A stretch of DNA of 38,988 bases, taken from assembly GCA_016875735.1 (NCBI GenBank), contig VGOW01000035.1:1-38988 (forward strand). The letters run 5' to 3'. This stretch comes from Chloroflexota bacterium (GTDB taxonomy: Bacteria > Chloroflexota > Anaerolineae > Anaerolineales > VGOW01). The position numbers and the translations under genes were made by a program. The notes beneath the pieces were generated by a model. The model was not told the origin of the DNA, did not search any database, and saw nothing but the letters and a program-made list of their open reading frames with translations. Shown in pieces: positions 11,633 through 34,436 of this stretch. The first letter of the stretch is position 1. The number at the start of each line of letters is the position of its first letter.

Positions 11633-14229
11633 TGCCCGCCTGCCATTTCGTAAATCGTCACTCCATCGGATTGATAGATCGCGTTCATATTGCGGTCGAA
11701 CTTCGTCAGCCCGTCGTCGCCGTATTGGCTTCTCTCCGCCGGGCCAACGTACACGTATCGAATGTTGTATTTTTGCAGAATGGGCAAGGCCGCTTCCCAA
11801 TCTCGCGCCGTGTACAGAATTCTCACATCCTCTTCGCGCCCGGCAAAGGATTCGGCTGTGCCGCGCCACTGCAACTCATGAAACGGCCAACCCAACACAG
11901 TGGGCAATCCGGTGTGCGCCGACACGCGCGCAAACTCGGTGTAACTTCCGCCCACCGCTTCGGCAATCACCGGCCTGCCCTTCACTGTGGCATTGAGAAA
12001 TTGAATCGCCCTGTAATCGGCGGCGCGGCTGAAAGCCATATACGCCATGCCGTCGAGCGTGGCAACCCGATCGCCGTCCGCATCGCGCGTCGTGCCCTGC
12101 CAGTTTTCGGTGATCGTCGTCGTCGCCAGCGTCGGATAGATCAGACCGATCACCACCGCCGCCGCCGCCACGGCCCCGAACAGAGTCTGCCCCAGCGGCC
12201 TCGCCATTCGCAACACCATCCACACTCCGAACGCTCCAGCCACCGACCACAACACCCAAGCCTGATAATAAAACTTGAAGATCGTATTCATGCGCGTGCT
12301 GAACAGATCGCGCAGATAGACGAACTCCGGGCCGAGTGTGAGTAGCGCGCCGGTGGCGGTCAGCACGGCGGCGAACACGGCGGTGGATGGGAAATTTGAA
12401 TCCGGCGGGGCGCCGCCATCGTTCGCGCGGCGCGGCCCGAACACGAGTGACGCCGCCACCGCCAAAATGGCCGTGATCAGAATTGGCGTGAGCGCTCGTT
12501 CGATCTCCAATCGCCGCCGCAAAATAAGCGCGGGGGCGCTTGGCAGTGGCGCGCTGCCGATGAGCGAATCGATGGCGCTCTGCACTTCGGGGCGGCCGCT
12601 CAACAAAATCACCATCGTGAGCGCGGCGCAAATGAGGATGAGGCCGGCCAGCGTTGCCAGCCCGCTCGCCACGCCGCTCCGCCAATTGGCCCGGTTGAAG
12701 TTGCTCGCCGCCGCCCAGCCCAGCCACGGAACGACGACGAACAGCAACGGGCCGAACATGACGATGAATTGCTGGATGCGCGCGCCAAAAACCACGTTGG
12801 GCAAAATGCCGCCGAGCTGCGAGCGGAAGCCAATGTAAAACGGCAAATACAACACAACCCCCAAGGCCGCGAGGCTTGCGCCGAGAACCAATCCATCGCG
12901 CCACACGATGTCTGTCCATCCATCGCGCCGCACGCGAGCAACGGCGTGCGCGGCAACGCACACAAAAACGTAGATCGGAAAATCCCATGTGTTGAGGAAT
13001 GACAACCCGCCGAGAATGATCGCCCCCGCGAAAAGGTCGAGCCACGGCAGAGGCCGCCATGCCGCAGAGACCGACGCGGTCTTGGAGGCCGCGTCGGTCT
13101 GGCCCAAAAACAAGTTGAGGGCGAAAGCGATCCCCAAAAACACGAACGGCAGTCCGAGCACGTGCGGGTGCATGTCGCCGAGCAAAAACGAAAAGAAGGG
13201 GAACTCGTCGATCACTTCAACTTCTGCGCCAAAGAGATCGCGGTCGTGAATCACTCGCGATGACTGCCACCACCACAGAAAACGATCGGGCGCGAACGAC
13301 GGCATCCCTTCGCCGGGCGCAGAGGCAACGGGCGGGTTGTTCGTCCACTTGATGTCCACCCAGCCCCAAAAGTTTGATTTGTAATCGCATCCGGCGCACG
13401 CGGCTTCGGCTTCGGGCTGGCAAATGACGCAGTAACGATTATCGGCGGAGCATTGGATGCAGGCTTCAGTTTGCGACGGCTCTGCCGCCAACCAACCGAG
13501 TTTGTGCGCCACTTCCAGCCCGCCGTTGAAATTGCCGAGAAGAATGAACAGCGGCCCCAACAATGCGGGCGCAATTGCGCGAACGAGCGATTGCTTGCCC
13601 GCCGCCGCGATCATGTTGAGCACAACGCCAAACGCGCCCGTTGCTGTCAGCCCGAAGAGCAAAGCGATGGCGAGATTGAAGGCCACGCCCGGCATCACGC
13701 CGGAGAGCGCGGTGAGCATTCCGACGATCACATATCCGAAGTGATAGTAGCTGATGGCGTAACCGGAGAGCCATGGGTCGCCGGGCGGCTGGGCGCCGGT
13801 TCGCAATACCGAATTGAGAAAGGCGAACTCCATCGGCTTCTCGGTGGCGGTGATGGTGGGGTTAAGGGAGCGAGCATAAGCCCAGAAGCCGAAGGCGATC
13901 AGAAAAATCACTTCGACTGCCAACACCGATCCCCAATTGGTTTTGAGCCACTGCCGAATCTCGCTCGAGGTTTCGCCGCGCAGACAGGCCAGCGATGCCG
14001 CGCCGACGATCATGAGCGCGGCCATCACGCCGCCCGGGCTCACTTGCGTGAAGCCGAAGTTGCCGAGAAGCCAGCCCGTGTAGCCGACAGCCAACAGCCC
14101 GCCGGTTTTACTCAGCGAGTATCCGCGATCGGGAAGGAAACGGAAGAGGCGAAAAAGGATCGGCCAGGCAACGATTCCAAAGATGGCCACGATGAGCCAC
14201 CACGAGGCAAAACTCTGCGCGTCAGTCAT
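11629..14229 (-). CDS. YYY-family (DUF2298 / TIGR03662-like) membrane protein with Cys-rich loop
   Basis: This 866-residue polytopic protein belongs to a family I know mainly from Chloroflexota and methanogenic archaea. It has the hallmark TEKPMEFAFLNSVLR, then GYAISYYHFGYVIVG (the 'YYY' segment), WWWQSSRVI, and DEFPFFSFLLGDMHPHV with a D-x-H-x-H motif near residue 351. The C-terminal soluble domain (DGMAYMAFSRAADY... to TIYEM) matches the end of the 1659-residue protein. Function is unknown; it is presumably a GT-C-like surface glycan enzyme. Oddities: three CxxC pairs within 25 residues (CIQC, CVIC, CAGC) in a loop at about residues 255-280, and an in-frame palindrome insertion at 13068-13100. 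Its stop overlaps the next start (ATGA). Confidence 0.85.
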   Translation of the reverse strand: MTDAQSFASWWLIVAIFGIVAWPILFRLFRFLPDRGYSLSKTGGLLAVGYTGWLLGNFGFTQVSPGGVMAALMIVGAASLACLRGETSSEIRQWLKTNWGSVLAVEVIFLIAFGFWAYARSLNPTITATEKPMEFAFLNSVLRTGAQPPGDPWLSGYAISYYHFGYVIVGMLTALSGVMPGVAFNLAIALLFGLTATGAFGVVLNMIAAAGKQSLVRAIAPALLGPLFILLGNFNGGLEVAHKLGWLAAEPSQTEACIQCSADNRYCVICQPEAEAACAGCDYKSNFWGWVDIKWTNNPPVASAPGEGMPSFAPDRFLWWWQSSRVIHDRDLFGAEVEVIDEFPFFSFLLGDMHPHVLGLPFVFLGIAFALNLFLGQTDAASKTASVSAAWRPLPWLDLFAGAIILGGLSFLNTWDFPIYVFVCVAAHAVARVRRDGWTDIVWRDGLVLGASLAALGVVLYLPFYIGFRSQLGGILPNVVFGARIQQFIVMFGPLLFVVVPWLGWAAASNFNRANWRSGVASGLATLAGLILICAALTMVILLSGRPEVQSAIDSLIGSAPLPSAPALILRRRLEIERALTPILITAILAVAASLVFGPRRANDGGAPPDSNFPSTAVFAAVLTATGALLTLGPEFVYLRDLFSTRMNTIFKFYYQAWVLWSVAGAFGVWMVLRMARPLGQTLFGAVAAAAVVIGLIYPTLATTTITENWQGTTRDADGDRVATLDGMAYMAFSRAADYRAIQFLNATVKGRPVIAEAVGGSYTEFARVSAHTGLPTVLGWPFHELQWRGTAESFAGREEDVRILYTARDWEAALPILQKYNIRYVYVGPAERSQYGDDGLTKFDRNMNAIYQSDGVTIYEMAGGQ
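13068..13100. repeat. In-frame palindrome inside the YYY gene
   Basis: AGACCGACGCGG (13068-13079) and CCGCGTCGGTCT (13089-13100) are perfect 12-bp arms around a 9-nt loop. On the coding strand this gives QTDAASKTASVS, a small-residue linker between membrane spans. It looks like a mobile palindromic repeat tolerated in frame. Confidence 0.65.
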
Positions 14230-14773: not shown

Positions 14774-15429
14774 TGTTGACTGCTCTCCAAAGCTTCCAAC
14801 CATTCGCGCCCCGCGTTACCTTCAACAATCAATCGCCGTCGCAGGGCGGCGATGGCCGCGCGCACTCGCGACTCGGCGGCCTTTGCGCCGCAACCCGCCG
14901 CTTCGCCAATTTGGGCGTAGCCCATCGCGCCGACGAAACGAAGAACGATCGCCTCGCGAAGTTTGGGCGAGAGGCTCTGCACTTCGGCCCACAGTTCGCG
15001 GCGAACGCCGCGCGCGGCCAGCCAATCTTCGAGCGGGCGAGCGGGCGCGTGTTTGTGAGCCTCCGCCGACTCTTCTCTGGCGAACCACAACAGCGGGATG
15101 GAAGCCAGCCATTTGCGGCGGCGCTTGTTGCGGTAGCGGCTGATGGCAATCGTAAAGAGCCAAGTCTGAAACGCCGACTTCGACGGATCGTATCGGCGCA
15201 GGTTTCGCAGGGCGTACACAAACGTGTCCTGCGTCACCTCGTCAGCGTCGTCGGCGTCGTTGAGCAAACCAGCCGCCAAACGGAACACCGCCGGAGCGAA
15301 TCGCCGATAGATGGCCTCTGCGGCGGCTTCATCGCCATTGCCAGCGGCGGCCAGCCAATCGGTCAAGCGTTCATTACTGTTATACACGGTCACTGGTAGA
15401 AATCCGTTGTGCGGGCCAAGAGTCTTCAC
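14770..15429 (-). CDS. ECF-family RNA polymerase sigma factor
   Basis: This 219-residue sigma-70 family protein has only regions 2 and 4. Region 2 spans about residues 40-105 (EAIYRRFAPAVFRLAAGLL, DADEVTQDTFVYALRNLR, FQTWLFTIAISRYRNKRRR). Region 4 spans about 145-205 (LSPKLREAIVLRFVGAMGYA, then a helix-turn-helix ending RVRAAIAALRRRL). The GTG at 15429 overlaps the R-M stop (GTGA). A later GTG about 40 nt downstream could also serve, because the first residues are not conserved. Targets are unknown, but the surrounding surface-glycan genes are natural candidates. It is followed by its anti-sigma factor. Confidence 0.92.
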   Translation of the reverse strand: MKTLGPHNGFLPVTVYNSNERLTDWLAAAGNGDEAAAEAIYRRFAPAVFRLAAGLLNDADDADEVTQDTFVYALRNLRRYDPSKSAFQTWLFTIAISRYRNKRRRKWLASIPLLWFAREESAEAHKHAPARPLEDWLAARGVRRELWAEVQSLSPKLREAIVLRFVGAMGYAQIGEAAGCGAKAAESRVRAAIAALRRRLIVEGNAGREWLEALESSQQ

Positions 15430-18400
15430 TCGATAGGCCAGCGCGGTATGGCTTTGTCAATCTCTGCCATGAGGCGCATCGTTTCTTTCAGGGCAACAAC
15501 CACCCGCTGATAATGCGCGATGTCGTCATTGCTCAACGTCCGCCCCTTGCGGTCTTTCAGCCATTTGTCGCAAACTTGATAGCCGCCGACGCGGAACTCC
15601 CACACCGCCTCCGGCACGCCGCCGAAGTATTGCGAGTCGTTGATCCAGACTTTTCTTTTCTCGTGCTTCACCTTTTCAACGGCGTTACTGCCCGCAACAG
15701 AGTAAGACGTGATGAAGTTATCGAGCGCGGGCGATTTGAGCAAATGCAGGCCGACGAGTTCTGCGCCTTTGGCCGCAAGTTTGGCGAACAGTTTTTTGTC
15801 AGAAGTGAGCGGCAGGCGCGGGAAATCTATTTTGAGAAATTCGGCGTAACGCTCACGGTAGACGGGCGAATGGAAGATGGCATAGGCGTAATGGAAAACA
15901 TCTTCCGGACCAAAGGTCTTCTTCAAATCGCCCGTGCCGTCGGCAGCAAACGTCAAGCCCAGTTTTTGAGAGCAGTCCGCAATGAACTTGTCGGATAAGT
16001 TTGGCCGACGCCCATTTTCGTGATCGAAGAGCGTGGCAGGGTAATCACCATTGGGATAGAGGTAGAGGGGGAAAAACGAATTGATGTCATAGGCGGCGCA
16101 CGATTTGTGGCCGCAAACGTGTTCAGTGGCTAGCGCCCCCCACGCATCTCGGGTTTGCCGTGTAGCGATCAGGCCGATGTTTTCCCCCGACAACATATGC
16201 TGCATGACTTCGGCGCGAGGCATGCACATGAACCCCCGTGTCTGGCCAGTGTAGTACGTATGCCTGATGTCAAACGGCCGATAAAGGAAGCGCGCAAGTT
16301 TTGACTTGTGAACCCCATGCTTCCGAATGTCGGCTTGAGCCAGAGCGACTTTCCAATCGCGGACATCTTCGCCCAAATCAAATTTCATGCGCGCCATTTC
16401 CGGCGGCAGAGAGACGAAATCTTGCACTCGACTCAAGATTTCTTTCTCTGTCCAACCAATTGTCAAATCGTCTCGCGCAGTCACGATGCCCGCCGAATGC
16501 ACCGGCATGATCTCCGTCAATTTCCAGCCTGGCTCATATTCGGCGCGGATTCTCCCCGCTTGCGGAGACAGAAGATAAGCAGGTTTAACAGGGCGTGCAT
16601 TCCTCCATTTCAATGAACGAACATCGTTGCGCTCCAAGAATGCATACTTTCTGGCTCGCGCTCCCCAAAGCTGGGCGTGACGCGCTATTGCTAAACCGTC
16701 CCGCTTTTGGATGCGCGCAAGGTGTTGAGGCGGCAGCTTTATTGCCAAGATGATCGCCACCCCTTGTTGAATGTCAAAAATATTTTCGTCGGGGCCACCA
16801 TCCGGCGCACGTTCTTTCTTCTTACTATTGCCGTGCAAGTCCAACACATAGAGTTCATCAAAGGACTTCAATAAATGCTGTCGCATCCCGCGAAAAGTAG
16901 GGTTGTCGAGGTAGCCGTGATTGGTGATGAAGGCAACTATGCCCTGCCCTGTTTGCTCAATGCGCCACTGCGCGAAGCGAATGAATTTCACATAATCATC
17001 TTGGAGCCATTTCGGGTTGCGTTCACCCAAAGGCCGCCCATCCACCGAGTAATAGTCGCGGACTAATTCGCCAATCCATTTGCCTTTATTGGCTGAGTGG
17101 CCGGAATACGGCGGATTGCCGACGATGACCATAATCGGCGCGTTCTTCTTCACCTGCGCGGCTTCGCTGGCTTCCTGCGAGATGTACCAGCCCAAATCTC
17201 CCAGCGTCTCAGAACGAGTCACCCCCTCGTCGAGCGCATTGGTCAAATAGATGCGGAGGCGATCCTCTTTGCCCCATATGTAATTCAGGTCTCGAAGCAG
17301 GAGGCCGAGTTTCAGATGGGCGATGACATACGGCGCAACCAGCAGTTCAAAGCCGAACAGGCGCGGCAAGAGATTCTGATGAACGTACTCCTGCCACGCG
17401 CCGCCCTGCCGTTTGCTCATCAACGTTTCGTGAATGACTCGGACGGCGAAATACAGGAATGTGCTTGTGCCAGTGGCGGGGTCGAGCAGATTAACGTCTT
17501 TGGCGGCCAACCCGAGCGGGCGATCAAAGCGATCTCTCAATAGCGAATCAACCGAGTTGACGATGAATTGAACGGCTGGCTCCGGCGTGTAATACACGCC
17601 GCGACTCTCGCGGAGTTTTGGATCATATGCGGCAAGGAAGGTTTCATAGAAATGCACCACGGGGTCTTCCGTCCGCGTGCGCTTGCCAAAGTCTTTGAGA
17701 ATAGCGCTTAAGTCGGCGCGGGCCAACAGCGAGGCAATGTCATCCAGAAACGGCGCAATCAGCGTATTCTCCAATTCTTCGCCCACATCCAAAAACAACT
17801 TGCGGAGAAAGCGATTAGCCGAAAGATGCTGATACGCAGAGGAACGGCTGAACCCCTCGCCCCCATCGCCTCTCCCGGCGGGAGAGGCGGCAGGGGTGAG
17901 GGCGCTCACGCGAGCGGCGAACAACCCATAGGCCATCGTCTGCGCGTAGATGTCGGCAAACTCACCGGGTTTGAGGTTGGGAAGCAGGTATTCTTGAAAT
18001 GCCTTGTATTGCTTGTGGAGCGCCCCGCTGATCTCCTCTTCGGCTTGAAGCGCGTTGAAGGTCAAATCGCGGATGAGTTTTGCCAACTGCGCCATGCGCT
18101 CGGCCAAATCGCGAGGCGTGCCGACGATGGGAATTTCGGTCTGATAAAACTCATTGAATAACTGCTCGGCGGTGGCGATACCTTCCGGGTCGGGCGTCAA
18201 CTTTTTATGCTTGCCAATCGAAGCAAGGCATGCCGTGAGTTTGCGCTGCCCATTGACGTACCAGCGAAATTCAAGATAGTCGGTCAATATCAAATTATTG
18301 AGCGACTGTCTATAACGCTTGAGTTGATCCGACTTTTCGACTTTGTCGAGATCAACGCCAACATCCTTTGTCTCGACGTAACCGAGAGGAACACGGCGGC

Positions 18401-18581
18401 GCTCCACAATGAAATCGGGCGCGCCGCACTCAATGTGCTTGGGGTCGTTGGAGGCGTCAACGCCGGAAGCCAGCGATTCCAGCAACCACTCCAACGAGGA
18501 GCGGTAAGTGTGCTCGGTGGCTTTGCCACTCTGCAAATCGCTCTCGATCCGCTGAAGGTAGGTTTCGAATAGGTTCGCCAT
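15426..18581 (-). CDS. Single-chain type ISP/IIG-like restriction-modification enzyme
   Basis: This 1051-residue protein should cut DNA and methylate adenine within one polypeptide. The N-terminus has a PD-(D/E)xK nuclease signature: PDFIVERRRVPLGYVETK, with D56, E70 and K72. A helical linker and a gamma-class N6-adenine methyltransferase follow, with motif I LLDPATGTSTFL near residue 365 and motif IV NPPYSG near 488. The C-terminal half resembles the target-recognition domain of type ISP enzymes (LlaBIII-like). The SF2 helicase module of classical type ISP enzymes is absent, so a type IIG-like mechanism is more likely. A GC-rich palindrome is inserted in frame at about residues 227-242 (ALTPAASPAGRGDGGEG). 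It sits between two glycan genes, 20 nt after the 1659-residue gene, and its stop overlaps the sigma-factor GTG. The motifs make the class secure; the recognition site cannot be read. Confidence 0.88.
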   Translation of the reverse strand: MANLFETYLQRIESDLQSGKATEHTYRSSLEWLLESLASGVDASNDPKHIECGAPDFIVERRRVPLGYVETKDVGVDLDKVEKSDQLKRYRQSLNNLILTDYLEFRWYVNGQRKLTACLASIGKHKKLTPDPEGIATAEQLFNEFYQTEIPIVGTPRDLAERMAQLAKLIRDLTFNALQAEEEISGALHKQYKAFQEYLLPNLKPGEFADIYAQTMAYGLFAARVSALTPAASPAGRGDGGEGFSRSSAYQHLSANRFLRKLFLDVGEELENTLIAPFLDDIASLLARADLSAILKDFGKRTRTEDPVVHFYETFLAAYDPKLRESRGVYYTPEPAVQFIVNSVDSLLRDRFDRPLGLAAKDVNLLDPATGTSTFLYFAVRVIHETLMSKRQGGAWQEYVHQNLLPRLFGFELLVAPYVIAHLKLGLLLRDLNYIWGKEDRLRIYLTNALDEGVTRSETLGDLGWYISQEASEAAQVKKNAPIMVIVGNPPYSGHSANKGKWIGELVRDYYSVDGRPLGERNPKWLQDDYVKFIRFAQWRIEQTGQGIVAFITNHGYLDNPTFRGMRQHLLKSFDELYVLDLHGNSKKKERAPDGGPDENIFDIQQGVAIILAIKLPPQHLARIQKRDGLAIARHAQLWGARARKYAFLERNDVRSLKWRNARPVKPAYLLSPQAGRIRAEYEPGWKLTEIMPVHSAGIVTARDDLTIGWTEKEILSRVQDFVSLPPEMARMKFDLGEDVRDWKVALAQADIRKHGVHKSKLARFLYRPFDIRHTYYTGQTRGFMCMPRAEVMQHMLSGENIGLIATRQTRDAWGALATEHVCGHKSCAAYDINSFFPLYLYPNGDYPATLFDHENGRRPNLSDKFIADCSQKLGLTFAADGTGDLKKTFGPEDVFHYAYAIFHSPVYRERYAEFLKIDFPRLPLTSDKKLFAKLAAKGAELVGLHLLKSPALDNFITSYSVAGSNAVEKVKHEKRKVWINDSQYFGGVPEAVWEFRVGGYQVCDKWLKDRKGRTLSNDDIAHYQRVVVALKETMRLMAEIDKAIPRWPIE
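17854..17902. repeat. In-frame GC-rich palindrome inside the R-M gene
   Basis: Core arms CGCCTCTCCC (17867-17876) and GGGAGAGGCG (17880-17889) flank GGC, with a longer imperfect outer stem (CCCCTCGCCCC against GGGGTGAGGG). The coding strand gives LTPAASPAGRGDGGEG, a peptide typical of palindromic repeats read through in frame. Confidence 0.75.
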
Positions 18582-18601: not shown

Positions 18602-21600
18602 CTAGTGATTTTGCAAAACTTCGTAAATCACTGTGCCCTCATTTTGGTAGGCTATCTTGAGCAACCCCTTTTCAGCCATGCTCTCGAACTTCGCCAGTGA
18701 CGGCGCCGGGAAATAGACTCGCTCATACTCACCCACGACAATATATCGCACGCCGTATTTTTGCAAGAAGTCCATCGCCTGCTGGTAATCGACCCCCATG
18801 TAGAAAGCGTTGATGTCATTCGACCGCTGCCACACGAGCCGATCGGGCAGGAGCACTCGCTGTTGGCGCTGATGCCAGTTCCAGCCCAGCACACCGGGCA
18901 GGCCGGTGTTGATCGTGTATCGCGATCCCCAGCGGTATTCGGGCGCGTTCACTTCTACGATCACCGGTGAGCCTTTCACGTTTTCCTGCATCCAACGAAT
19001 CGCGTCGGCGTCATATTTGAGATCGAACGACTGCCCCTGATCAGCATAGCGAGCATAACTCATGTACAACATGCCGTCGAGCGCGCGCGGCGCGGCGGGC
19101 GCGATCCGATCCTGAACTTTGGCCGATGTTGCCAACACTGTATACAACGCCGCCGCCGTGACCAACGCCGTGAGGCCGAACTGCCACACATTGCGGCTCA
19201 ATGGTTTCCACTCCGGCATCTGCGCCCAAACCCAAGCAATGGCCGCGCCCGATGCGACGCTGAACAACGTCCACACTTGCAGGTAAAACTTGAACACGGT
19301 GTTCATCCGGCCAATGTCGCCTTTGGCAACGACGACTTCCACCATCACCGTCAGCGTCAATCCGAGCCCGATCAACCCCAGAGCCGCCCGCCGTTCGGGT
19401 TCGGCCTCCCTGCGGATCATCAGCAGGCCCGTCCAGGCAATGAGCGGCACGGCGAGGAGAGCCACATCGTATCCGAGCCACCACATGCCGAAGACCATCA
19501 GCATGAAAGCCACAAACGCAAACAGCGCCGGGCCGAGCAAATCTTTCACTTCGTCGAATGGAATCTTCTGCATCCATCGCCGGGTTTCGGTGAGCAGAAA
19601 AACGAAGATGACGAATAGAAACAGGCCGTGAACGGTGAGATACGAATCGAGGGGCGTTTTGTCGCCGCGCCACAATTGCACCGAGCCGTAGCCCTCGCCG
19701 CGCCAGTGCGAATAGGGCCAAAAGAATGCCAGCGACAGCAGGATGAGCAAAGCACAACGCCATGCAGTTTCGATGGCGTACCGCAAATCGATCTTGCCAT
19801 GCTGGCGCAGTTGGCCGTAAGCGATGGCAACACACCCCAGCGCCCAATAAGTTTGATAATCGGAAAGGTTAGATGGCTGAATCGATCCGAACACAACGCC
19901 GCCCACGATCCACAGCGCCGCCGTTTCGAGCCAACGCCGTTCGCCGTCGGCCGCTGACATCACCGCCGAGAGCGCCCAGCCCAGCGCAATCACCGTGATC
20001 GTCAGCACGATCATGTGCGCGTGCAAGTCAGCGTACAAAAAGGTGAAAAAGGGAAACTCGGTGATTGGGATAGTCTGCTGATCCGGAATGACTCGCGTGG
20101 CGTTCCAATACCATTCGCCCGTGCCGATCATCACCGGCGTATGCTGAACATAGATTCGCCAGATGCCCACCGCCGCCCTCTGCCAATCGGTGATGAATTG
20201 AATCGGCGTCGTTGCCGGAACATCGAGCGCGGCGCGAGTGAGCGCCTTCATGATCGTCTGCGTCTGCCCCAAGTTGCCCAGCGCCACAAATAACAGCGCG
20301 GCGAACACGCCCGCCAAATATGGATTGGCTACGATGCGCTGTACGCTGTGCGGCGTGGGCAATGAACTGCTCGCCATTCGCTGGCCGGCCGCCACAAGAT
20401 TGAAAGCCACGCCGAACGCGCCCATGCCCGCCAGCGAAAACAACATCGGCAGAATTAAGTTGTAGGCAAAGGCGGGCACGATGCCGAGCATCTTTGTCAG
20501 CGCGCCCACCACTACAAAACCGAAATAGTAATAGTTGAGATAGCCGCCCGCGTACCACGGATCGTATGGCGGGAACGACGTGCTTTTGAGCACAGCGTTG
20601 AAATACGAAAAATCCATCGGCTTCTCGCCGCCGTAGGCCGGGTGCCACAGATCGCCGTTGCCCCAACGGATGAGCAAAAAGAAAACGAACCACAACAGCG
20701 ACAACAATTCGACGGCGAGGGCGTAGCGCCAGTTCACTGCAACCCACGCTTTGATCTCCGCAAAACGCCGCCACAGAATCAGGGACGCCGCCACCGCCAT
20801 CACTCCGGCAATGATCCACAATGCCCATTGGGTGAAAGGAAGGATGCGGAAGCTGGCGAGAAACCACGATACCCACGCAATGAACAACAGCGCCAAATTG
20901 CGCGAGAGGGCATAGCCGCGATCGGGCAGGCCGCGCAGCGCGACGAAGGCGATGGGGAAAGCGATGAGGCCGAGCAACACGCACGCAAGCCACCACACGG
21001 CGACGCCCAATGGTTGGTATTTGTTGAGCGGCGATTCTCGATTGAACAGCTCGGCCCACGTGCCCCCTGCCCTTTGCTCGGCGAGGCGATCATCGGGCAG
21101 CATGAGCATGGTGGGCGCGGCGGTGGCTTCGCGCGGCCCCTGCGCCACCACCGTATTCAAGTCAATCGCCTCGAGCACAGCCATCGCTTTCTCGATGTCG
21201 AAGTCGGCGCGTTTCTTGAAAACCCAAACGGGCGCATGATCGTACACGCTGAAGGCTTCTTCGGCGGCGAGCGGGTTGTCGTTGAACAGAGGCGGAGTCG
21301 GCGTCGCGTTCCACGCCCACGATCCGCTCACATCCGAAATTTTCAACGGCCCAATCGTGATCGGCGAAGTGAAGGTCGCCGCCAGATCGAATTCGAGCCG
21401 CCCGTCGAACAGGGCCCGATAGTATTCCATCGTCATCGGATACGCGGCGGGCAAACGCGAGGTGCTCCAGATTCCGCGCTGGCTGGGCAGGATGATGTAA
21501 TCCACTTGGGCGAGGTTGGTGCGGAACATGAGCCGTTTGTTTTCGTCGTCGTTCCAGCGCACCTCCATCGTCATGCCTTGATACAACCCGCCGAAGCCGT

Positions 21601-23581
21601 CGCGCCCGTCGAGGCGCAAAGGCAAGCCCTCATCCCAATTCTCGTTGGCGATGATCGAGCCCCACAACTGCACCGGGTTGCCGCGCGGCGCGCTGAGAAG
21701 CAAATAGTACGGCACGCCTTTAGTCACCGCCGCCGGGCCGAACGAAATTGATCCGCCGCCGCCGCGTTCGTCTCCGATTTTCGGAGTGGTCGTCAAATCG
21801 GCAGAGGCCAATGGTTGCAGCCCGCCCGGATCGGCGGCGAGCACAACGTGAATGGTGTGCGGTGCGTTCGAGAATCCGTCGCCCGCATAGCCCACCGAAA
21901 ATTCATTGATCACGCCATCGATGCGCGGAGAGAAGGGCACGGGGATGGGAAAGTCGGCGCCGACTTGCATGCCGAAGGGAACGGGCACCGGCTCGGTGTG
22001 GGCGCCGGTGGCGGTGTCCATCCGAAGATTGATCGGCGCGGGCACGTTGCCGTAAATCCAGCGCGAGGCCTGAATGCGCGTGTTGTCCGTCCGATAGATC
22101 GAGGTGAAGCCCCATGCCCACGCAAGGCTACCGATCAAGATAATCGCGCCGAGGGCGATGGACGAAAGACGAAAAACAAAGGGCATTCGACGATTGGCAG
22201 TGTTCGTCATCCGTCGTTCGTCCTTCCTCTTCACTCCGAGATTCCACAACTCGCACAGCGCCCATGCGGCGAAGAGGGCAAGGAAAGGATAGATGGGCAA
22301 GAAGTAGCGCATGGATTTGACCCAGCGCGTGCCGGTGAAAAGAAAGAAGCCGCCCGTCCACAAGAGGGGAAGCAGATGCTTCTGCCATTCGTTTTTCTGA
22401 AAGGCGCGGCGCATGGCCCACAGGAAACCGCCCCACGCGGCGGCGCCGAGCGGCAAGCCCATGCCCCACAGCACGATGTTGGTGAGCGGGAAGATGATGG
22501 CCGGGCGATTCGTCCACTGTTCGCCGGGCGGCCCGCCGCCCACGCCGCTCGATTCGGCTTGCGCCACCGCCATGCTCGTCAGCCATTCGGGGTTGGGGGT
22601 GACGGTGAAGATCGTTGTGTCGCCCGTCGTGGCGCGGAACGACATGGGCTGTGTGACTCGAAACGTGATGAGCGACACGACTCCGGCCAGCGCCAACAGC
22701 GTGAACACTTTGCCGATGCCAGCCGCAGATTTCGAGTCACTGCTTTCGCGCAGGAGGGTGTCGGTGTTGGCGATGAAGGCGGCCACGACGATCATGCCCG
22801 CCAATGGAACGAGATTGATGCGCGAGGCGACAGCCATGCCGAAGAAGAGGCCGAAGAGGGCGTACCACACCGCCCCCCCCCGTCCCCCCCCGCTTCGCGG
22901 GGGGGGCAATACAACCCTCACCGCGCAATACATTGCCAGCATCACGAACAGCACGGCAAAGTTGTCGGAGGTCATGAAATGCGATTGCTGAATCTGCATC
23001 ACGGCCAGCGCGCTGAGGGCCGAGGCCAGCAGGCCCACGCGATGACTGTACAGCCGCGCGCCGATGAGGTAGGTCACAAACAATGCCAATACATCGCACA
23101 ACGCGGAGAGTGTGCGCCCCATGAGTCGCAGATCGCCGTAGGCGGTGTTGTCGGTGAGTTCGGCGGTGATACGGATGAGGATGATGGGCCACTGCCCCCA
23201 GCGCATCCGGTTATCGGGGCCGGGCGCGGCGAGCGAGCCGGCCTCATCGTATTTTTGGTAGGGGCTGATGGAGGAGAGGCGCGTGTTGAAATAGTCGCCG
23301 AGCGTTTTGGGGATGGAAAGGCGGGTGAGTGTGCTGGTGAGGCCGTATTCGTCGGGGTGGAGGTCAGTGCCCTGATTCCAATTCACCCAGTTGAGGCGGA
23401 AGTAGATGCCTACAACGATGAGGCCGATGAGCAGAAGATCGAATGCAAAGCCCAGCACATCCGCGAGGGTTCGAACGGCTGGCCGAGGTCGAACGGCGGC
23501 GTCCGACGGAGTGGAGGGCAGGTCAGGCGAGAGGTCGGGCGAGGGTTGCTCGGCGGCGTCTGTCGCGATCGTTTCAGTCAT
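18602..23581 (-). CDS. GT-C glycosyltransferase fused to a YYY (DUF2298-like) membrane domain, 1659 aa
   Basis: This is an exceptionally large fusion. Residues 1 to about 860 form a GT39/PMT-like module: a Pro-rich cytoplasmic N-terminus, a first span, then LHPDEYGLTSTL with the Asp-Glu pair (D77, E78), further spans, and a soluble beta-rich domain. From about 870 a second polytopic module matches the 866-residue YYY protein: GLPDRGYALSRNLALL, EKPMDFSYFNAVLK, LNYYYFGFVVVGAL, and EFPFFTFLYADLHAHMI (D-x-H-x-H near 1186). The C-terminal soluble part is shared too. A heptamer array (22160-22229) and a GC palindrome (22884-22906) are read in frame in loops of the first module. It lies 5 nt after the 728-residue GT-C gene and 20 nt before the R-M gene. 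The substrate is unknown. Confidence 0.87.
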   Translation of the reverse strand: MTETIATDAAEQPSPDLSPDLPSTPSDAAVRPRPAVRTLADVLGFAFDLLLIGLIVVGIYFRLNWVNWNQGTDLHPDEYGLTSTLTRLSIPKTLGDYFNTRLSSISPYQKYDEAGSLAAPGPDNRMRWGQWPIILIRITAELTDNTAYGDLRLMGRTLSALCDVLALFVTYLIGARLYSHRVGLLASALSALAVMQIQQSHFMTSDNFAVLFVMLAMYCAVRVVLPPPRSGGGRGGAVWYALFGLFFGMAVASRINLVPLAGMIVVAAFIANTDTLLRESSDSKSAAGIGKVFTLLALAGVVSLITFRVTQPMSFRATTGDTTIFTVTPNPEWLTSMAVAQAESSGVGGGPPGEQWTNRPAIIFPLTNIVLWGMGLPLGAAAWGGFLWAMRRAFQKNEWQKHLLPLLWTGGFFLFTGTRWVKSMRYFLPIYPFLALFAAWALCELWNLGVKRKDERRMTNTANRRMPFVFRLSSIALGAIILIGSLAWAWGFTSIYRTDNTRIQASRWIYGNVPAPINLRMDTATGAHTEPVPVPFGMQVGADFPIPVPFSPRIDGVINEFSVGYAGDGFSNAPHTIHVVLAADPGGLQPLASADLTTTPKIGDERGGGGSISFGPAAVTKGVPYYLLLSAPRGNPVQLWGSIIANENWDEGLPLRLDGRDGFGGLYQGMTMEVRWNDDENKRLMFRTNLAQVDYIILPSQRGIWSTSRLPAAYPMTMEYYRALFDGRLEFDLAATFTSPITIGPLKISDVSGSWAWNATPTPPLFNDNPLAAEEAFSVYDHAPVWVFKKRADFDIEKAMAVLEAIDLNTVVAQGPREATAAPTMLMLPDDRLAEQRAGGTWAELFNRESPLNKYQPLGVAVWWLACVLLGLIAFPIAFVALRGLPDRGYALSRNLALLFIAWVSWFLASFRILPFTQWALWIIAGVMAVAASLILWRRFAEIKAWVAVNWRYALAVELLSLLWFVFFLLIRWGNGDLWHPAYGGEKPMDFSYFNAVLKSTSFPPYDPWYAGGYLNYYYFGFVVVGALTKMLGIVPAFAYNLILPMLFSLAGMGAFGVAFNLVAAGQRMASSSLPTPHSVQRIVANPYLAGVFAALLFVALGNLGQTQTIMKALTRAALDVPATTPIQFITDWQRAAVGIWRIYVQHTPVMIGTGEWYWNATRVIPDQQTIPITEFPFFTFLYADLHAHMIVLTITVIALGWALSAVMSAADGERRWLETAALWIVGGVVFGSIQPSNLSDYQTYWALGCVAIAYGQLRQHGKIDLRYAIETAWRCALLILLSLAFFWPYSHWRGEGYGSVQLWRGDKTPLDSYLTVHGLFLFVIFVFLLTETRRWMQKIPFDEVKDLLGPALFAFVAFMLMVFGMWWLGYDVALLAVPLIAWTGLLMIRREAEPERRAALGLIGLGLTLTVMVEVVVAKGDIGRMNTVFKFYLQVWTLFSVASGAAIAWVWAQMPEWKPLSRNVWQFGLTALVTAAALYTVLATSAKVQDRIAPAAPRALDGMLYMSYARYADQGQSFDLKYDADAIRWMQENVKGSPVIVEVNAPEYRWGSRYTINTGLPGVLGWNWHQRQQRVLLPDRLVWQRSNDINAFYMGVDYQQAMDFLQKYGVRYIVVGEYERVYFPAPSLAKFESMAEKGLLKIAYQNEGTVIYEVLQNH
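22160..22229. repeat. Heptamer array inside the coding frame of the GT-C/YYY fusion
   Basis: Ten 7-nt units (GGACGAA, AGACGAA, AAACAAA, GGGCATT, CGACGAT, TGGCAGT, GTTCGTC, ATCCGTC, GTTCGTC, CTTCCTC) have inverted halves, like the intergenic arrays. They are translated as a basic loop that includes KRKDERRMTNTANRRMP. Confidence 0.7.
22872..22907. repeat. In-frame G/C-tract palindrome inside the GT-C/YYY fusion
   Basis: CCCCCCCCGC (22884-22893) and GCGGGGGGGG (22897-22906) form a 10-bp stem with a 3-nt loop, next to a second C9 run. The coding strand gives LPPPRSGGGRGG in a loop between membrane spans. Confidence 0.75.
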
Positions 23582-26593: not shown

Positions 26594-26731
26594 GAAACGA
26601 TTCGCCGTAAAGACGCGAAGGGCGCAAAGTTGTGTGAAGGAGATCGCATTATTTGCGCCATTGCGTTGATTTCTCTTGGAGCCTATCTCCAAACCTCGGT
26701 TGGGGGCGCCACCGACGGCAATGCCGCCGGC
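26594..26731. repeat. Intergenic repeat region with hairpin downstream of helicase
   Basis: No gene is visible in this 138-nt gap. It holds a degenerate array of about 9-nt period (GTAAAGACGC GAAGGGCGC AAAGTTGTG) at about 26607-26640. A hairpin, ACCGACGGC (26711-26719) with GCCGCCGGC (26723-26731), follows immediately after the helicase stop and could act as a terminator, although no U-tract follows. Confidence 0.5.
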
Positions 26732-29700
26732 TTACCGCCAAACCTCGAAGGCCATCTGCTTCACTTTGGGCCGGCGCTGGGCGCGCGCCCGCAGAAGCGC
26801 CTTGCGCCCGGCTTCGCTCTTCGTGTAAATCAACTCGCCGCCGCCCACGTAACGCCGCCAGTGTTCGGCGAACGATTCGGCCCGCTGTTTGTTGGCCGCC
26901 AGCACATCAGGCACAGGATGATACACCATATCCACCTTGTCCTGCCGCACTAACCCCCGCAAGAAAATCCACAGAGGTTGCCATACGGATTGGGGCAGAG
27001 TCGAAACGTCGCGGGTGATGAGATAGCGCGGCTCGCGAAGGGCGGCAAAGGTTTGCTGATAGGCGCGGGCAAAGGTGTCGGAGTCTTCAGGCGAGGCGTA
27101 ATCAATGAACACTTCGTAACCGTCGGCGTCGGTTTGGCGCACGCGCACGAAATCGTCGCTCAAGTTGCGGCCGATCAATCCTGCATCGCGCAGCCCGGCC
27201 AGCACGGCTTTGGCAACGTCGAGCAGCACACCGTCGGGAGGGACGTCATCCACCAGCGCCTTGCGGAAGAGGCGATAGGCGCTCCGCGCATTGTATGCAA
27301 AGACGACGGCAGGCACGATGAACGACACCGCGCCGAACGCGCACAGCAACCCATCGAGGCCGCCCACGCCCACCGCAACACGCGCCGCCTGCAAACAAAT
27401 ATAGAGCGCCAACATGAGACTTGCGAGCAGCGTGGCGATGAACTCGCGCAGGAGTCTTTTCAACGTGTCGGTCACGCGGTGTGCGGTGAGGAATTTGATC
27501 TCGGCGGCGCCCAGCTGAGTAGCCGTGTACGTGAAGTTGCTGTATTCCTCGCCGATGCCCCACAACTTATACGAGTCCACTCGCGACTCGGCAGTGGCGC
27601 GGGCCAGCATCCGGCGATTGTATTTGTCGTAGTTGATCTGGCGGAAATCGCGGGCGCACAAATCGAACGCCAGATCACGATCCACGTGGACAACGCCTTT
27701 GGCGATTTGACCGTGTTCGCGCCCGACCAACATCTGCGCTTGCGCCACCGCCGATGCATCGGCCAGCATCTGCTGCCACTCGCCGTTGTTCACCACCCCC
27801 CAATACTGCGCGTGCTTGCGAGCAAATCGAAGCAGGTCGGCGTTGCCGCGCTCGAACTTGCGCGCCACGCACACCACATCCCAGTTGTGGGCCACTTTGC
27901 GATCCCACGACGGATCGAGGCGGAGGGTGCGCCCGCGCAGTTGATTGACTCCGGTGGATGTCGTCACCGCCGTGAGATCGACCAGCGTGTTCAACCCCAA
28001 CGCATCCCACCCCTCGCCGAAGATTCCGCGCGTGCCGACGAGACAACGAGTAAAGCCCTGCTCGAACATCGCCGTGATCAATTGAACGTACGTGCGCGAT
28101 GTCCAATCCTTTCCCGTTCCGATGAGCGACATGATCTTTTCGTCGTCGGTTTCGCCGTATTCAATCGTCGTTTCCAGATTCCGAGCCGACAGCCACTCGC
28201 GCATCACGCCCAGCATTTCTTCGCCGTGATCAGAATCGAGCAGGACAACGTTGCCGGTGACGAGGATTGCGTCGAGGGCATTGAGCTCGGAGTCGGCCAC
28301 CAACGCGCGAAAGAGCCGAACGGCGCTTCCGGCATCGGGGTCGAGAACGTCTTTCAGTTTGCGGGCGCGCGCGCTCACCTTTTCGTAATCGGTGATCACC
28401 ACCGCCCGCATCTGCGCGCCCAATGCTTTTTGCTCGGCTCGCAAAATTTTGATCGTGGCCGCATCCTTCGACTCGGAGAGGGCGAGGACGAGATCGCCGG
28501 GGGCGCGGCCCTGCCGCAAGCCGCGTTCGGTGAGCGAGAGGCCGAAGGGGGCCAGCGCTTTTTCGAGATCCGAAAAGAGTTTGTGATCGGCGCGGTCGTC
28601 GCTCGTCTTTAACACATTCAGCCCGAACGGCTCAAGCAGGTTTGCCCAATCATCGAGCGTCATCGGCTCGTCCATCTCATCGAGCAATGGCAGGCCTTCG
28701 GGAATGGGCTGTTGGCGCAAGCGCAGGTATTTGATTCCGGCGATGGCAAGCAACGGCTTTTCGTTGATGAAGTTCAGCCACACGTCGGGCGATTGGAACA
28801 GAAGGGTGGCGGCCACCCAACGGGAGAAACGGTCGGAGTCGGTGATGGCGTGGAGGGCGCGTTCGAACGCGGATTGAATGTCGCTGAGGTAGTCGGTCTC
28901 GCGCGGCGTCGGCTCGCAGAAGAGCACGAGGTCGCGATACGGCGCGAGGTTGCCCTCTTTGACCACAGCGGGCGTGGGCACTTCGAAGTCCACTTCGCCG
29001 AGAAGGCCGACGTAGTTTTCGTATTCGTCGTCGGTGTCGAGGCCGGGCAGGGTGGCGGTGAGGCCGACGATGCGCGCATCGGGGATGCGACGGATGAGTT
29101 CTTTGATGATCAGCGCCCAATAGTCGAGGAGGTGATGGCACTCATCGAGCACGACGGTTTTGACTCCGAAACCGACAAGCCGATCAATGAGCGCGCGGGC
29201 GTTGGCATGGATGAATTGCGCGCCGTTGAACTTGGGATCGCGCAGGGCTTCGCGTTTGCGGCGCGCGTATCGTTTGCGGATTTCGGAATCGTAAGCGGCG
29301 GGGTTGTTCGCTTTGAGAGTCTCGATGCGGAGTCGAGCGGCGGCCTCGTCGTCGGCTTTGCTTTCGCGCACGAGCGCATCGATCCAATCGACTTCGGCCA
29401 GTTCACGGAGGAAGTCGAGATTCTCTCCGGGCGTGGACAGAAGTTGGTAAGTGAAAGCGTTGATCGGTTTGAGTTCGCGCGGGTCGAGGCTCGCCCATTC
29501 GGAGATTTGCGACGGGTCTTGGAGAAAGAGGCCAACCTTTTCCTGCCACTGCGATTGAATGGTAGAGGTGGGCGCGAAGACGACGGCGGGCTGGCCGAAA
29601 GTGAGAATGAGTTCGATGCCGACGATGGTTTTGCCTGCGCCGGGCGGCGCGACAATGTGAAACTTGCGATCCGTCTCGCCCTTCGATTTCACCAGATCGA

Positions 29701-29755
29701 GAATCATCTTCTGGTATTTGCGGAAGGGATGGCGGAATTGGAGAGGGTTGGGCAT
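26732..29755 (-). CDS. DEAD/DEAH-type SF2 helicase with C-terminal membrane spans
   Basis: This 1007-residue protein has Walker A APPGAGKT (residues 36-43), motif Ia VVFAPTSTIQSQW, DEAH-box variant DECHH (204-208), motif III GLTATLPG (about 231-238), and in RecA domain 2 GTRGIFGEGWD and motif VI QLRGRTLRLD (about 603-612). About 330 residues separate the two RecA halves. It is unusual in having two hydrophobic segments near 770-822 (FIATLLASLMLALYICLQAA; AFGAVSFIVPAVVFAYNA) and then a soluble C-terminal domain of about 180 residues. This would anchor the motor to the membrane with both ends cytoplasmic. I do not recognise the C-terminal domain with certainty. No nuclease motif is evident. It lies between the GT4 gene and the methyltransferase. 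A defence or DNA-processing role is inferred only. Confidence 0.8.
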   Translation of the reverse strand: MPNPLQFRHPFRKYQKMILDLVKSKGETDRKFHIVAPPGAGKTIVGIELILTFGQPAVVFAPTSTIQSQWQEKVGLFLQDPSQISEWASLDPRELKPINAFTYQLLSTPGENLDFLRELAEVDWIDALVRESKADDEAAARLRIETLKANNPAAYDSEIRKRYARRKREALRDPKFNGAQFIHANARALIDRLVGFGVKTVVLDECHHLLDYWALIIKELIRRIPDARIVGLTATLPGLDTDDEYENYVGLLGEVDFEVPTPAVVKEGNLAPYRDLVLFCEPTPRETDYLSDIQSAFERALHAITDSDRFSRWVAATLLFQSPDVWLNFINEKPLLAIAGIKYLRLRQQPIPEGLPLLDEMDEPMTLDDWANLLEPFGLNVLKTSDDRADHKLFSDLEKALAPFGLSLTERGLRQGRAPGDLVLALSESKDAATIKILRAEQKALGAQMRAVVITDYEKVSARARKLKDVLDPDAGSAVRLFRALVADSELNALDAILVTGNVVLLDSDHGEEMLGVMREWLSARNLETTIEYGETDDEKIMSLIGTGKDWTSRTYVQLITAMFEQGFTRCLVGTRGIFGEGWDALGLNTLVDLTAVTTSTGVNQLRGRTLRLDPSWDRKVAHNWDVVCVARKFERGNADLLRFARKHAQYWGVVNNGEWQQMLADASAVAQAQMLVGREHGQIAKGVVHVDRDLAFDLCARDFRQINYDKYNRRMLARATAESRVDSYKLWGIGEEYSNFTYTATQLGAAEIKFLTAHRVTDTLKRLLREFIATLLASLMLALYICLQAARVAVGVGGLDGLLCAFGAVSFIVPAVVFAYNARSAYRLFRKALVDDVPPDGVLLDVAKAVLAGLRDAGLIGRNLSDDFVRVRQTDADGYEVFIDYASPEDSDTFARAYQQTFAALREPRYLITRDVSTLPQSVWQPLWIFLRGLVRQDKVDMVYHPVPDVLAANKQRAESFAEHWRRYVGGGELIYTKSEAGRKALLRARAQRRPKVKQMAFEVWR

Positions 29756-29762
29756 GGAGAGC

Positions 29763-29839
29763 GAACGGCGAATGATGAATGACGAATGATGAACAGCTAT
29801 TTGCCACTTGCTACCTGCTACTTGCCATTTGCTACCTGC
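29763..29839. repeat. Two abutting heptamer arrays between GT4 and helicase genes
   Basis: Five units of GAATGAY type (29763-29797) are followed directly by six of YAYYTGC type (29798-29839: TATTTGC, CACTTGC, TACCTGC, TACTTGC, CATTTGC, TACCTGC). The last unit supplies the TAG stop of the GT4 gene (29834-29832). Confidence 0.85.
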
Positions 29840-32032: not shown

Positions 32033-33039
32033 TCATTCCCCTATCGAAAACAACGAGCCCTGCACCGTCGTCACGTAGAGCCGGCCCGGCACGAGCGCGC
32101 CGCCCGCCGGGTATTGGGAGATGCCAAACGATGCCACCCATCGCGGTTCGTCTGCGCCGATGGCGTACGACAAACACTCACCGCCTGTGCCTCGGTGTAC
32201 CCCGCATAACATGATGGTGAAGAAGACCACCGTCCCGGCAAAGATCATGGCTTCGGGTCGTTCACGGTTCTCGGCGGCAATCGCCAGCATCTGCCCGAGT
32301 TCGGGCGTGCCGCTGATTCGCTGCATGGCAAAGTCTTCAATTTGAAACCACACCCCGCCGCCGAGATAGTAGCCGAGAAAGCCCAGCATCGCCGTCACCA
32401 GCAGCGTGTTGCTGATCTCCACGGCGAACAGCATCCACAGCATCGGCGCGATCTGCCGCAACACGTGGACGAGCACAATTTGCGAATCGGGCTGCCCTAA
32501 TGCGCGGGCGGCTTCGATATATTGTTGGCCTTTGATCTCGCCGGTCTGTTGGCGCACGAGCCGGGCGGTCTCCGCCCAGCCAGTGAGCGAGAGGCCGAGG
32601 GTGAATGCCGTGACGCCGGACTCGATGCCGACGATAGCAATGACTCCGAGCGCGACAATGAGCACTGGAACCGCGAGCGACGCCGAAATGAGCGTTAGCC
32701 AGATCCCGTTTGCCCGCCCCACCGACCAGCCCGCCGCTACGCCAACCAGCGTGCCCACAAACAATCGGAGCGCGGCCACCGTCACTACCATCGCCATCGT
32801 CGGTCTCACCGCCCGCAACAATTGGCTGAGCAGATCGCGCCCCTGGGCATCGGAGCCGAGCCAATAGCCGGGAACGGCGGCTTCACCCACGTTCCGTTCG
32901 CATCCTGCAAAATGAAAACGCCCGCCGTGGGATCGCGGGGCGCAAGTTGTTTGCCGAAGAGGGCGATGGAAGTCACCGCCAGCACGATTATCCCGCCGAA
33001 GATAAGAGGCCAATTGACGCGGCGGCCCAGCGCGCTCAT
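32033..33039 (-). pseudogene. dppC: DppC-type ABC transporter permease, frameshifted
   Basis: This is a peptide/nickel-type (BPD) inner-membrane permease. The start ATG at 33039 overlaps the dppB stop (ATGA). The first 56 or so residues (SALGRRVNWPLIFGGIIVLA ... GTWVKPPFP) are normal for the family, but the frame then runs into unrelated sequence. The continuation GYWLGSDAQGRDLLSQLLRA lies in another frame that stays open to 32033. One missing base in the GGG at 32870-32872 (CCC on the coding strand) explains this exactly, restoring VKPPFPGYWLGSDAQGRD. The EAA-loop region (EIKGQQYIEAARALGQPDSQ) is intact. The last 55 or so residues are not permease-like and end VPGRLYVTTVQGSLFSI, reminiscent of a truncated beta-propeller blade. 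No slippery heptamer is visible, so decay or an assembly error is likelier than programmed shifting. Confidence 0.82.
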
Positions 33040-33971
33040 TGACTCTCCTCCGCGCGGCGAAGATGGGGCGCCAGCGCGCGCACCAATCCCGAGGCGGTCA
33101 AGTCGGCGATGAGAAAAAAGAAGGCGAACGCAGTGAGTGTTGCCGCCAACGCCGACGGGTGCAGAAAATACAACGACTCTTCGACATGCGAACCCTGCGA
33201 CGGGATCAGAATCAACGCCAACAGTCGGCCAATGCCGGGCCACGAGAAAAGCCGCTCGACGACGATCATCTCGCCCATCAACAGCCGGAACGATCCGGCC
33301 ATCGTGAGAATGATCGGCGCAAGCACGTTGCGAAATGCATGACGCCAGCGAATGCGCCCCCATGAGTTGCCCACCGCCCACGCCGTAACTACGTAACGCT
33401 TGCCCAATTCATCGGCCAGCAAATGCGCCGCCATCTGCGCGATCTGCACCGTCGGCCTGAGCATCAGCGCAATCACCGGCAAGATAAGATGCGCGTCCAA
33501 ACCGTATCCCGCCACAGGGATATTCAACGTATCGGCGCCAAAGCGTCCCGCCATTGCAACCGCCCCGACGACGAACAGCGTGCCAAGATAAAAACTCGGC
33601 ATCGCCAGCCCAACGGTCGAGAGCGGCGCAAGCCACAACGACACTCGCGGCGGATTGGCGCGCGCAGCGATCACCCCCAACAACACACCCGCAACGACAC
33701 TGAACGCAAAGGCCACAGCCAACAGGCTTACACTCGCGCCCGCCGCTTTCAGCACCGCCTCGCCCACAGGCATCCCCGCGCCGAGGGGCAGTGAGCCAAA
33801 ATCGAGTCCGGCGGCGTTCTGCAAATAAACCGCGTAAGTCGGCAAGAGCGGCGCGGGCCGCTCCAATGGCGCGAAGAACGGGTTGCGCTGCATCTGAATG
33901 TTGCGAGCGAAATGAGCGTATGAGAAGCCCGCAAAATTCGCCAGCAATAGCGCAACGGGAATGATAGCGAC
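33036..33971 (-). pseudogene. dppB: DppB-type ABC transporter permease portion, cut from its N-terminus by TGA
   Basis: This is a BPD permease with the usual features: KAAGASVSLLAVAFAFSVVA, LAPLSTVGLAMPSFYLGTLF, the EAA-like loop LLADELGKRYVVTAWAVGNS, and EMIVVERLFSWPGIGRLLAL. It has no credible start of its own. The frame runs back through VAIIPVALLLANFAGF, half of a membrane span, directly into a TGA (33974-33972), which is in the same frame as the upstream TPR gene. A TTG at 33947 could be used but would delete most of the first span. The simplest reading is a TPR-permease fusion interrupted by TGG to TGA. Its stop overlaps dppC. Confidence 0.78.
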
Positions 33972-34436
33972 TCACCCGATGAGCCCTAAGACACTGAAGC
34001 GACTCGTTTTGGGGATGGCGGGCAATGGGGCGGATGTGGCTGGCGGGGCGGTTCGAGATGGAGTGGCCGGGAGGGGCGCCGCCACCAGAGGAGGCGGTTT
34101 GGCCGCCAACGTTCGCTGTGGGGAAACAGGGCGCGCGCCAGCGTGTCTCGTCACCGCAGGCGAGGCAGGAATCTCAAGAGCAAGTCGATCACCCTCGAGC
34201 CGCCGCTCTGCCCAGCGCACAGCCTCCTGCGCCACCGCATTGTCAGGATCAAAGTTCAGCGCTCTTCGAGCATAAAGGAGGGAATCATCCGGCGGCGATA
34301 TGGCGGCCAGCACAAGGAGCGCCTCGGCATTGCCTTCATCCAAACTTGCCGCCTCATGCAGTAATTGCCGGGCCTCGGCAATTTGCCCTGCCCTGATGTG
34401 TTCCTTCGCCGCCGAAAGAAGTGGGGCCACACTCAT
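33972..34436 (-). CDS. TPR-like N-terminal module of a TPR-DppB permease fusion
   Basis: This 154-residue open frame has its own ATG (34436) and ends at a TGA. The first 80 residues are TPR-like helical repeats (LLSAAKEHIRAGQIAEARQL, ASLDEGNAEALLVLAAI, ARRALNFDPDNAVAQEAVRW). A Pro/Ala-rich linker follows, then the start of a hydrophobic span, SRFSVLGLIG, cut off by the stop. Downstream sequence in the same frame completes that span and continues as a DppB permease, so this is probably the broken N-terminal part of one protein. A short soluble TPR protein could still be made. Confidence 0.75.
   Translation of the reverse strand: MSVAPLLSAAKEHIRAGQIAEARQLLHEAASLDEGNAEALLVLAAISPPDDSLLYARRALNFDPDNAVAQEAVRWAERRLEGDRLALEIPASPAVTRHAGARPVSPQRTLAAKPPPLVAAPLPATPSRTAPPATSAPLPAIPKTSRFSVLGLIG

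Follow-up and report, generated by a model that had tools for sequence, protein, structure and literature searches.

XPB (ERCC3/RAD25), known in archaeal, bacterial and TFIIH forms, and RadD, a protein of about 586 aa, are described SF2 motors that share a motor core with the protein studied here. The ResIII subunits of restriction enzymes (PF04851) have the same ATPase domain, and ComFA is a membrane-linked SF2 ATPase that handles DNA. Two papers present ComFA as a transformation ATPase (PMC8262900, PMC12236230). The SF2/XPB-like kind of motor is already known; its combination with a predicted membrane hairpin and an apparently dedicated C-terminal tail, as seen at the present locus, had no description in the open-access text searched. 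In that text we found neither an account of this helicase family nor a prokaryotic integral-membrane SF2 motor, and in the libraries searched the family carries generic names only (ResIII, DEAD, "DEAD/DEAH box helicase family protein").

The window, that is, the whole 38,988-nucleotide stretch of DNA analysed, contains the helicase as a single open frame on the minus strand, with an ATG at 29755 and a stop at 26732. Homologues start at about the same position as this 1007-aa protein. The features of the locus are as follows.

26594–29839, minus strand: segment missing from the empty site, comprising the helicase and short flanks (BLASTN junctions against G001, G002 and G003)
26732–29755, minus strand: whole SF2 helicase/translocase gene, 1007 aa (open reading frame and translation, ResIII/DEAD matches, AlphaFold model)
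28907–29755, minus strand: first RecA-like motor domain, residues about 1–283, with a helical insert at about 110–196 (secondary structure of the model, ResIII match)
29624–29653, minus strand: motif I, VAPPGAGKTI, residues 35–44 (kept across the homologue alignment)
29129–29149, minus strand: motif II, LDECHHL, residues 203–209 (D204, E205, H207 and H208 invariant in 62 sequences)
27791–28408, minus strand: second RecA-like motor domain, residues about 450–655 (model and structural alignments to XPB)
27917–27946, minus strand: motif VI, NQLRGRTLRL, residues 604–613 (Q605, G608, R609 and R612 invariant in 62 sequences)
27254–27484, minus strand: membrane helical hairpin, residues about 758–834, predicted N-in/C-in (model helices, hydropathy and charge in 44 homologues, absence as a unit in 33)
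26735–27244, minus strand: C-terminal alpha/beta domain, residues about 838–1007 (model; no PDB or viral fold match, no PDB sequence match)

The core SF2 motifs that an earlier note had reported from the sequence are indeed there: Walker A, DExH and motifs III, V and VI occur in order, which places the protein in SF2. Motifs I, II, III, V and VI were invariant or nearly so in homologue alignments, and LTATLP (residues 232–237) and FGEGWDA (residues 579–585) were both kept across homologues. Pfam returned ResIII (PF04851) at residues 10–236 with an E value of 1.7e-13 (51 bits, cut-off 22.5) and DEAD (PF00270) above its cut-off with an E value of 2e-9. The full-length AlphaFold model had a mean pLDDT of 87.9 and a pTM of 0.84. 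In three homologues (L069, L072 and L087) the frame continues for about 170–200 residues ahead of the usual start, possibly as an extra N-terminal domain. Promoter and terminator scans of the helicase region gave results at or below chance.

Using the family profile against PDB sequences, we obtained XPB first (E 1.8e-17), with RadD at E 7.5e-9. A structural search with VIA-align also had XPB on top (9pd3_A and 7egb_6, TFIIH; Z 26.6, 3.2–3.3 Å, about 370 residues); the INO80 and FANCM translocases came closely behind, DEAD-box RNA helicases lay at a Z of about 22 and RadD at 21.4–22.1. Both sequence and fold bring the motor nearest to XPB, yet it is not XPB: we rejected that identification on a score of 40.7 bits, the cut-off of the NCBIfam XPB equivalog (NF045503) being 610, a value that none of the host's own genes reaches. 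XPB supplied the best PDB sequence match and the best match to the two-RecA core, although its sequence match is limited to the first motor domain, and the helicase, unlike XPB, has long helical inserts, a predicted membrane hairpin and a different C-terminal domain. The helicase resembles RadD in its SF2 core; the match is confined to that core, and the hairpin and C-terminal domain are not shared as far as seen. Lhr, which is a neighbour of one homologue, belongs to a different SF2 subfamily.

The ResIII ATPase domain is also what the helicase has in common with restriction-enzyme subunits. Type I and III restriction enzymes combine a nuclease domain with an adjacent modification subunit, whereas Pfam found only ResIII and DEAD in the present protein, no modification or specificity partner lies alongside it, and a hairpin is present. 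By Pfam, the flanking genes encode a glycosyltransferase and a small-molecule-type methyltransferase.

That the motor would act on DNA rather than RNA we infer from its XPB-like kinship alone, with the DEAD-box RNA helicases not far below in the structural ranking. Since those helicases do align, and since membrane-glycan genes lie on both sides of the window copy, we considered an RNA motor at the membrane, working for example in mRNA handling or decay. Such a role appears improbable, however: XPB came first in the sequence search and no DEAD-box RNA helicase stood above it, the two flanking genes adjoin each other without the helicase in sister genomes, and other homologues have other neighbours.

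Hydropathy analysis located hydrophobic spans at residues 772–790 and about 795–826, and the full-length model showed two helices there (758–797 and 800–834) joined by a two-residue turn and followed by an ordered C-terminal domain, which agrees with the two spans near residues 770–822 and the soluble domain after them that the earlier note had described. Among the long-spacer homologues, 43 of 44 had two segments with a mean hydropathy of at least 1.2. In the 44 hairpin-bearing homologues, K and R averaged 2.66 over the 15 residues ahead of the hairpin and 3.61 over the 15 that follow it, against 0.32 in the loop, with more after than in the loop in all 44 and more before than in the loop in 42. 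Because these charges carry a positive-inside signature with both ends inside, the motor and the tail should both be cytoplasmic, on either side of an N-in/C-in hairpin. Computationally, the segment thus has the two helices of spanning length, the positive-inside flanks and the conservation within the hairpin branch that mark an integral membrane protein.

Of 74 sampled homologues, 41 have the hairpin and 33 lack it as a unit. Between two conserved anchors lay 82–166 residues in proteins with the hydrophobic pair and 41–47 in those without, two classes that do not overlap. We built a tree from the motor part alone, leaving the hairpin out; hairpin presence corresponded to one change, with an SH-aLRT of 100 on the dividing branch, in a tree whose root is not known and in which long branches meet at that branch. 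The hairpin-less branch comprises Planctomycetota, Verrucomicrobiota and marine group II archaea. Because the hairpin is present in the most distant of the relatives compared, a Paenibacillus megaplasmid and two gut scaffolds, its loss on the way to this soluble branch would be the simpler reading. The two gut scaffolds (L028 and L029; MT836806 and MT838455), which encode these distant homologues, are named "Bacteriophage sp."; the neighbours scanned were a NUDIX hydrolase, an ABC transporter and a regulator, with no phage structural genes among them, so the scaffolds are probably bacterial contigs. Lineages that share the motor and tail but differ in the hairpin form a natural comparison for the effect of membrane tethering on a DNA motor.

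We regard the hairpin as a probable real membrane anchor on the grounds of hydropathy, charge, its deletability as a unit and the model, in keeping with the earlier suggestion of a motor tethered to the membrane. The same two segments could instead lie buried within a globular core, given that membrane insertion is argued from hydropathy, charge and a model, and that the segments are weak in a few homologues (maximum hydropathy of 1.37 in L040 and L056). We give this reading very little credence: the hairpin is missing in one piece from nearly half of the sampled family while the rest of the protein is kept, 42 to 44 of the 44 homologues have positive-inside charges, and structure prediction, the check that had been proposed for it, gave a long two-helix hairpin that, as far as a model can tell, speaks against burial.

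Modelled alone, residues 830–1007 formed an ordered domain (pLDDT 85.7), and the soluble, uncharacterised C-terminal domain of the earlier note was confirmed in this respect and by database searches. Foldseek against PDB (lowest E 0.49), VIA-align (highest Z 3.7, to Ohr, over residues 6–75 alone) and the viral models of BFVD (lowest E 0.15) gave no match worth naming; a PDB sequence search returned nothing even at an E value of 1, and Pfam had no match for the domain. It may be a new fold, a novelty that missing fold matches leave unproven. In 400 genomes of the phylum, the domain had 12 matches, 11 of them inside frames of about 1000 residues or more and the twelfth in a 290-residue frame near a contig start. 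Because the phylum matches lie inside the helicase, the domain seems dedicated to this motor. Conserved positions in the wide alignment were Y911, V948-P949, F962 and W966, joined in nearer homologues by R910 and R915, and we noticed no nuclease motif.

Taking motor, hairpin and tail together, we consider it likely that the protein is a membrane-anchored, cytoplasm-facing, ATP-driven DNA motor, an SF2 translocase of the XPB-like type with a dedicated tail. A membrane position and an SF2 motor recall ComFA, and a similar machine might draw transforming DNA in from the membrane. We judge such an import function very unlikely, because neither Pfam nor NCBIfam matched a ComFA model, no competence gene occurred among the neighbours read, and a patchy solo gene for a 1007-aa protein with helical inserts and an unrelated C-terminal domain differs from ComFA in size, domain plan and gene context.

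The family is scattered over bacteria and archaea, with anchored and soluble branches discernible from sequence. A relative at an E value of 1e-10 or better was found in 16 of 400 genomes of the window's order, most of them full-length and 42–54% identical, and among five genomes of the genus the helicase was in the window's genome only. An alignment-guided scan of 84,980 species genomes yielded at least 574 stretches with a relative, unlike a single-sequence scan of the species genome contigs, which gave no match. The best 80 of these at least 574 stretches include Chloroflexota, Dormibacterota, Obscuribacterales, Clostridia, Actinomycetota, Planctomycetota and Verrucomicrobiota, as well as marine group II archaea and one micrarchaeon. 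Microbacterium had the gene in 36 of 198 genomes (one copy broken), and several related species of that genus have it at a common locus beside MoxR, which we read as vertical synteny. Of 116 marine group II genomes, 73 carried the soluble form and 107 the RpoB control; the soluble form sits at partly conserved positions among metabolic and housekeeping genes.

In three same-genus genomes (G001, G002 and G003) the site is empty, and the flanking glycosyltransferase and methyltransferase genes adjoin. BLASTN junctions at window positions 29840 and 26593 lay 33–122 bases apart in these genomes. Synteny with G002 extends through most of the window and that with G003 through its middle part, and the GC content of the helicase is no different from that of its flanks. 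On the comparison of these genomes, the simpler account is that the window's lineage gained the gene, with loss in the relatives as the alternative, and the helicase is best described as a stand-alone accessory gene. About 8 kb away lies a single-chain Type IIG restriction-modification gene (15426–18581, minus strand; PADLOC E 8e-284), which is absent from its syntenic place between an ECF sigma factor and a gene for a 1659-aa protein in G002 and G003. Because each gene is missing from an otherwise syntenic stretch, the two represent separate presence/absence events. The earlier note had taken this enzyme, 8 kb off in the same direction, as a hint of defence; its position and strand were confirmed, whereas its closeness says little about the helicase because the restriction-modification gene is an insertion of its own.

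Clean presence or absence of a single gene between conserved genes within a genus, as for the nearby Type IIG gene, is a pattern that would suit single-gene defence: a membrane-held motor could bind entering phage or plasmid DNA and translocate, so that replication is blocked or proteins are stripped, or the C-terminal domain could signal. The patchy occurrence (16/400 in the order, 12/400 in the phylum as counted by the C-terminal domain, and the Microbacterium figure above) fits this, as does one homologue that adjoins a Type I HsdR gene. We nevertheless hold defence to be somewhat unlikely. With PADLOC, we compared 113 near with 113 far genes from 32 homologue loci plus the window, and found no enrichment of defence genes near the helicase as in a defence island: 17 families matched near and 59 far, the far set being inflated by generic kinase and ATPase models. 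The helicase itself matched none of the PADLOC models strongly, those of known anti-phage helicases (HamB, BrxHI, DruE, DpdJ and others) included; the best was a partial match to typeIV_DinG (E 2.3e-5). There is no partner nuclease, we noticed no nuclease motif in the tail, an IMG/VR scan gave no match, and marine group II archaea commonly carry the soluble branch, in syntenic positions among housekeeping genes. A specific defence role, which the earlier note had named alongside DNA handling, is thus not supported; the housekeeping-only neighbourhoods that it had named as grounds against its reading were found in part, many neighbourhoods being of that kind. More doubtful still is an anchored one-gene defence on invading DNA in which a new-fold C-terminal domain would do the recognition and the hairpin would have been gained or lost once, leaving matched soluble and membrane lineages.

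No conserved operon partner emerged in bacteria, where no neighbour family recurs widely; an amidohydrolase downstream of the helicase is common to three relatives of one family, again read as vertical synteny. At locus L069 of a Chloroflexi genome (985–9473), the helicase homologue stands between Lhr, whose identity is supported by winged-helix domains, and a Nei/Fpg-type H2TH gene, on one strand with gaps of about 8 bases. In mycobacteria, lhr-nei2 is an inter-strand-crosslink repair operon (PMC11323726). At L070, the helicase is preceded at 48 bases, on the same strand, by a uracil-DNA glycosylase gene. These are two unrelated cases chosen after looking, and we take them as a hint.

For the role in the cell, we lean toward genome maintenance, ahead of invader defence, with DNA import and RNA handling behind both. 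The full proposal, repair included, is that the protein is a stand-alone membrane-tethered dsDNA translocase from the XPB/RadD-like part of SF2, serving genome maintenance, and we put it forward tentatively, as a possibility of less than even weight. Using ATP, the two RecA-like domains would hold duplex DNA and move along it stepwise; the hairpin would fix the motor to the inner membrane face, so that DNA held there is pulled or remodelled; and the C-terminal domain might recognise a substrate or partner. Damaged or stalled DNA would thereby be opened or processed, as by XPB and Lhr in soluble form, and hairpin-less branches would serve this function in the cytosol. We count for the maintenance reading the invariant or nearly invariant motifs, the XPB kinship, the modular positive-inside hairpin, the Lhr/Nei and uracil-DNA glycosylase neighbours and the soluble marine group II branch among metabolic genes. 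Against repair stand the envelope-type genes (glycosyltransferase and methyltransferase) on either side of the window copy and a patchy, insert-like distribution that is unusual for a repair gene.

Elsewhere in the window, a three-gene block on the minus strand (32033–34436) with two ABC-transporter permeases was also without a match in the G002 and G003 synteny. The genes at 11629–14229 and 18602–23581 (minus strand) encode large proteins of 866 and 1659 aa, the latter with no PADLOC match, which cluster by BLAST and may be paralogues. The methyltransferase frame next to the helicase opens with a TTG at 26692, and homology begins near 26600; the gene's real start probably lies some 30 codons past that TTG.
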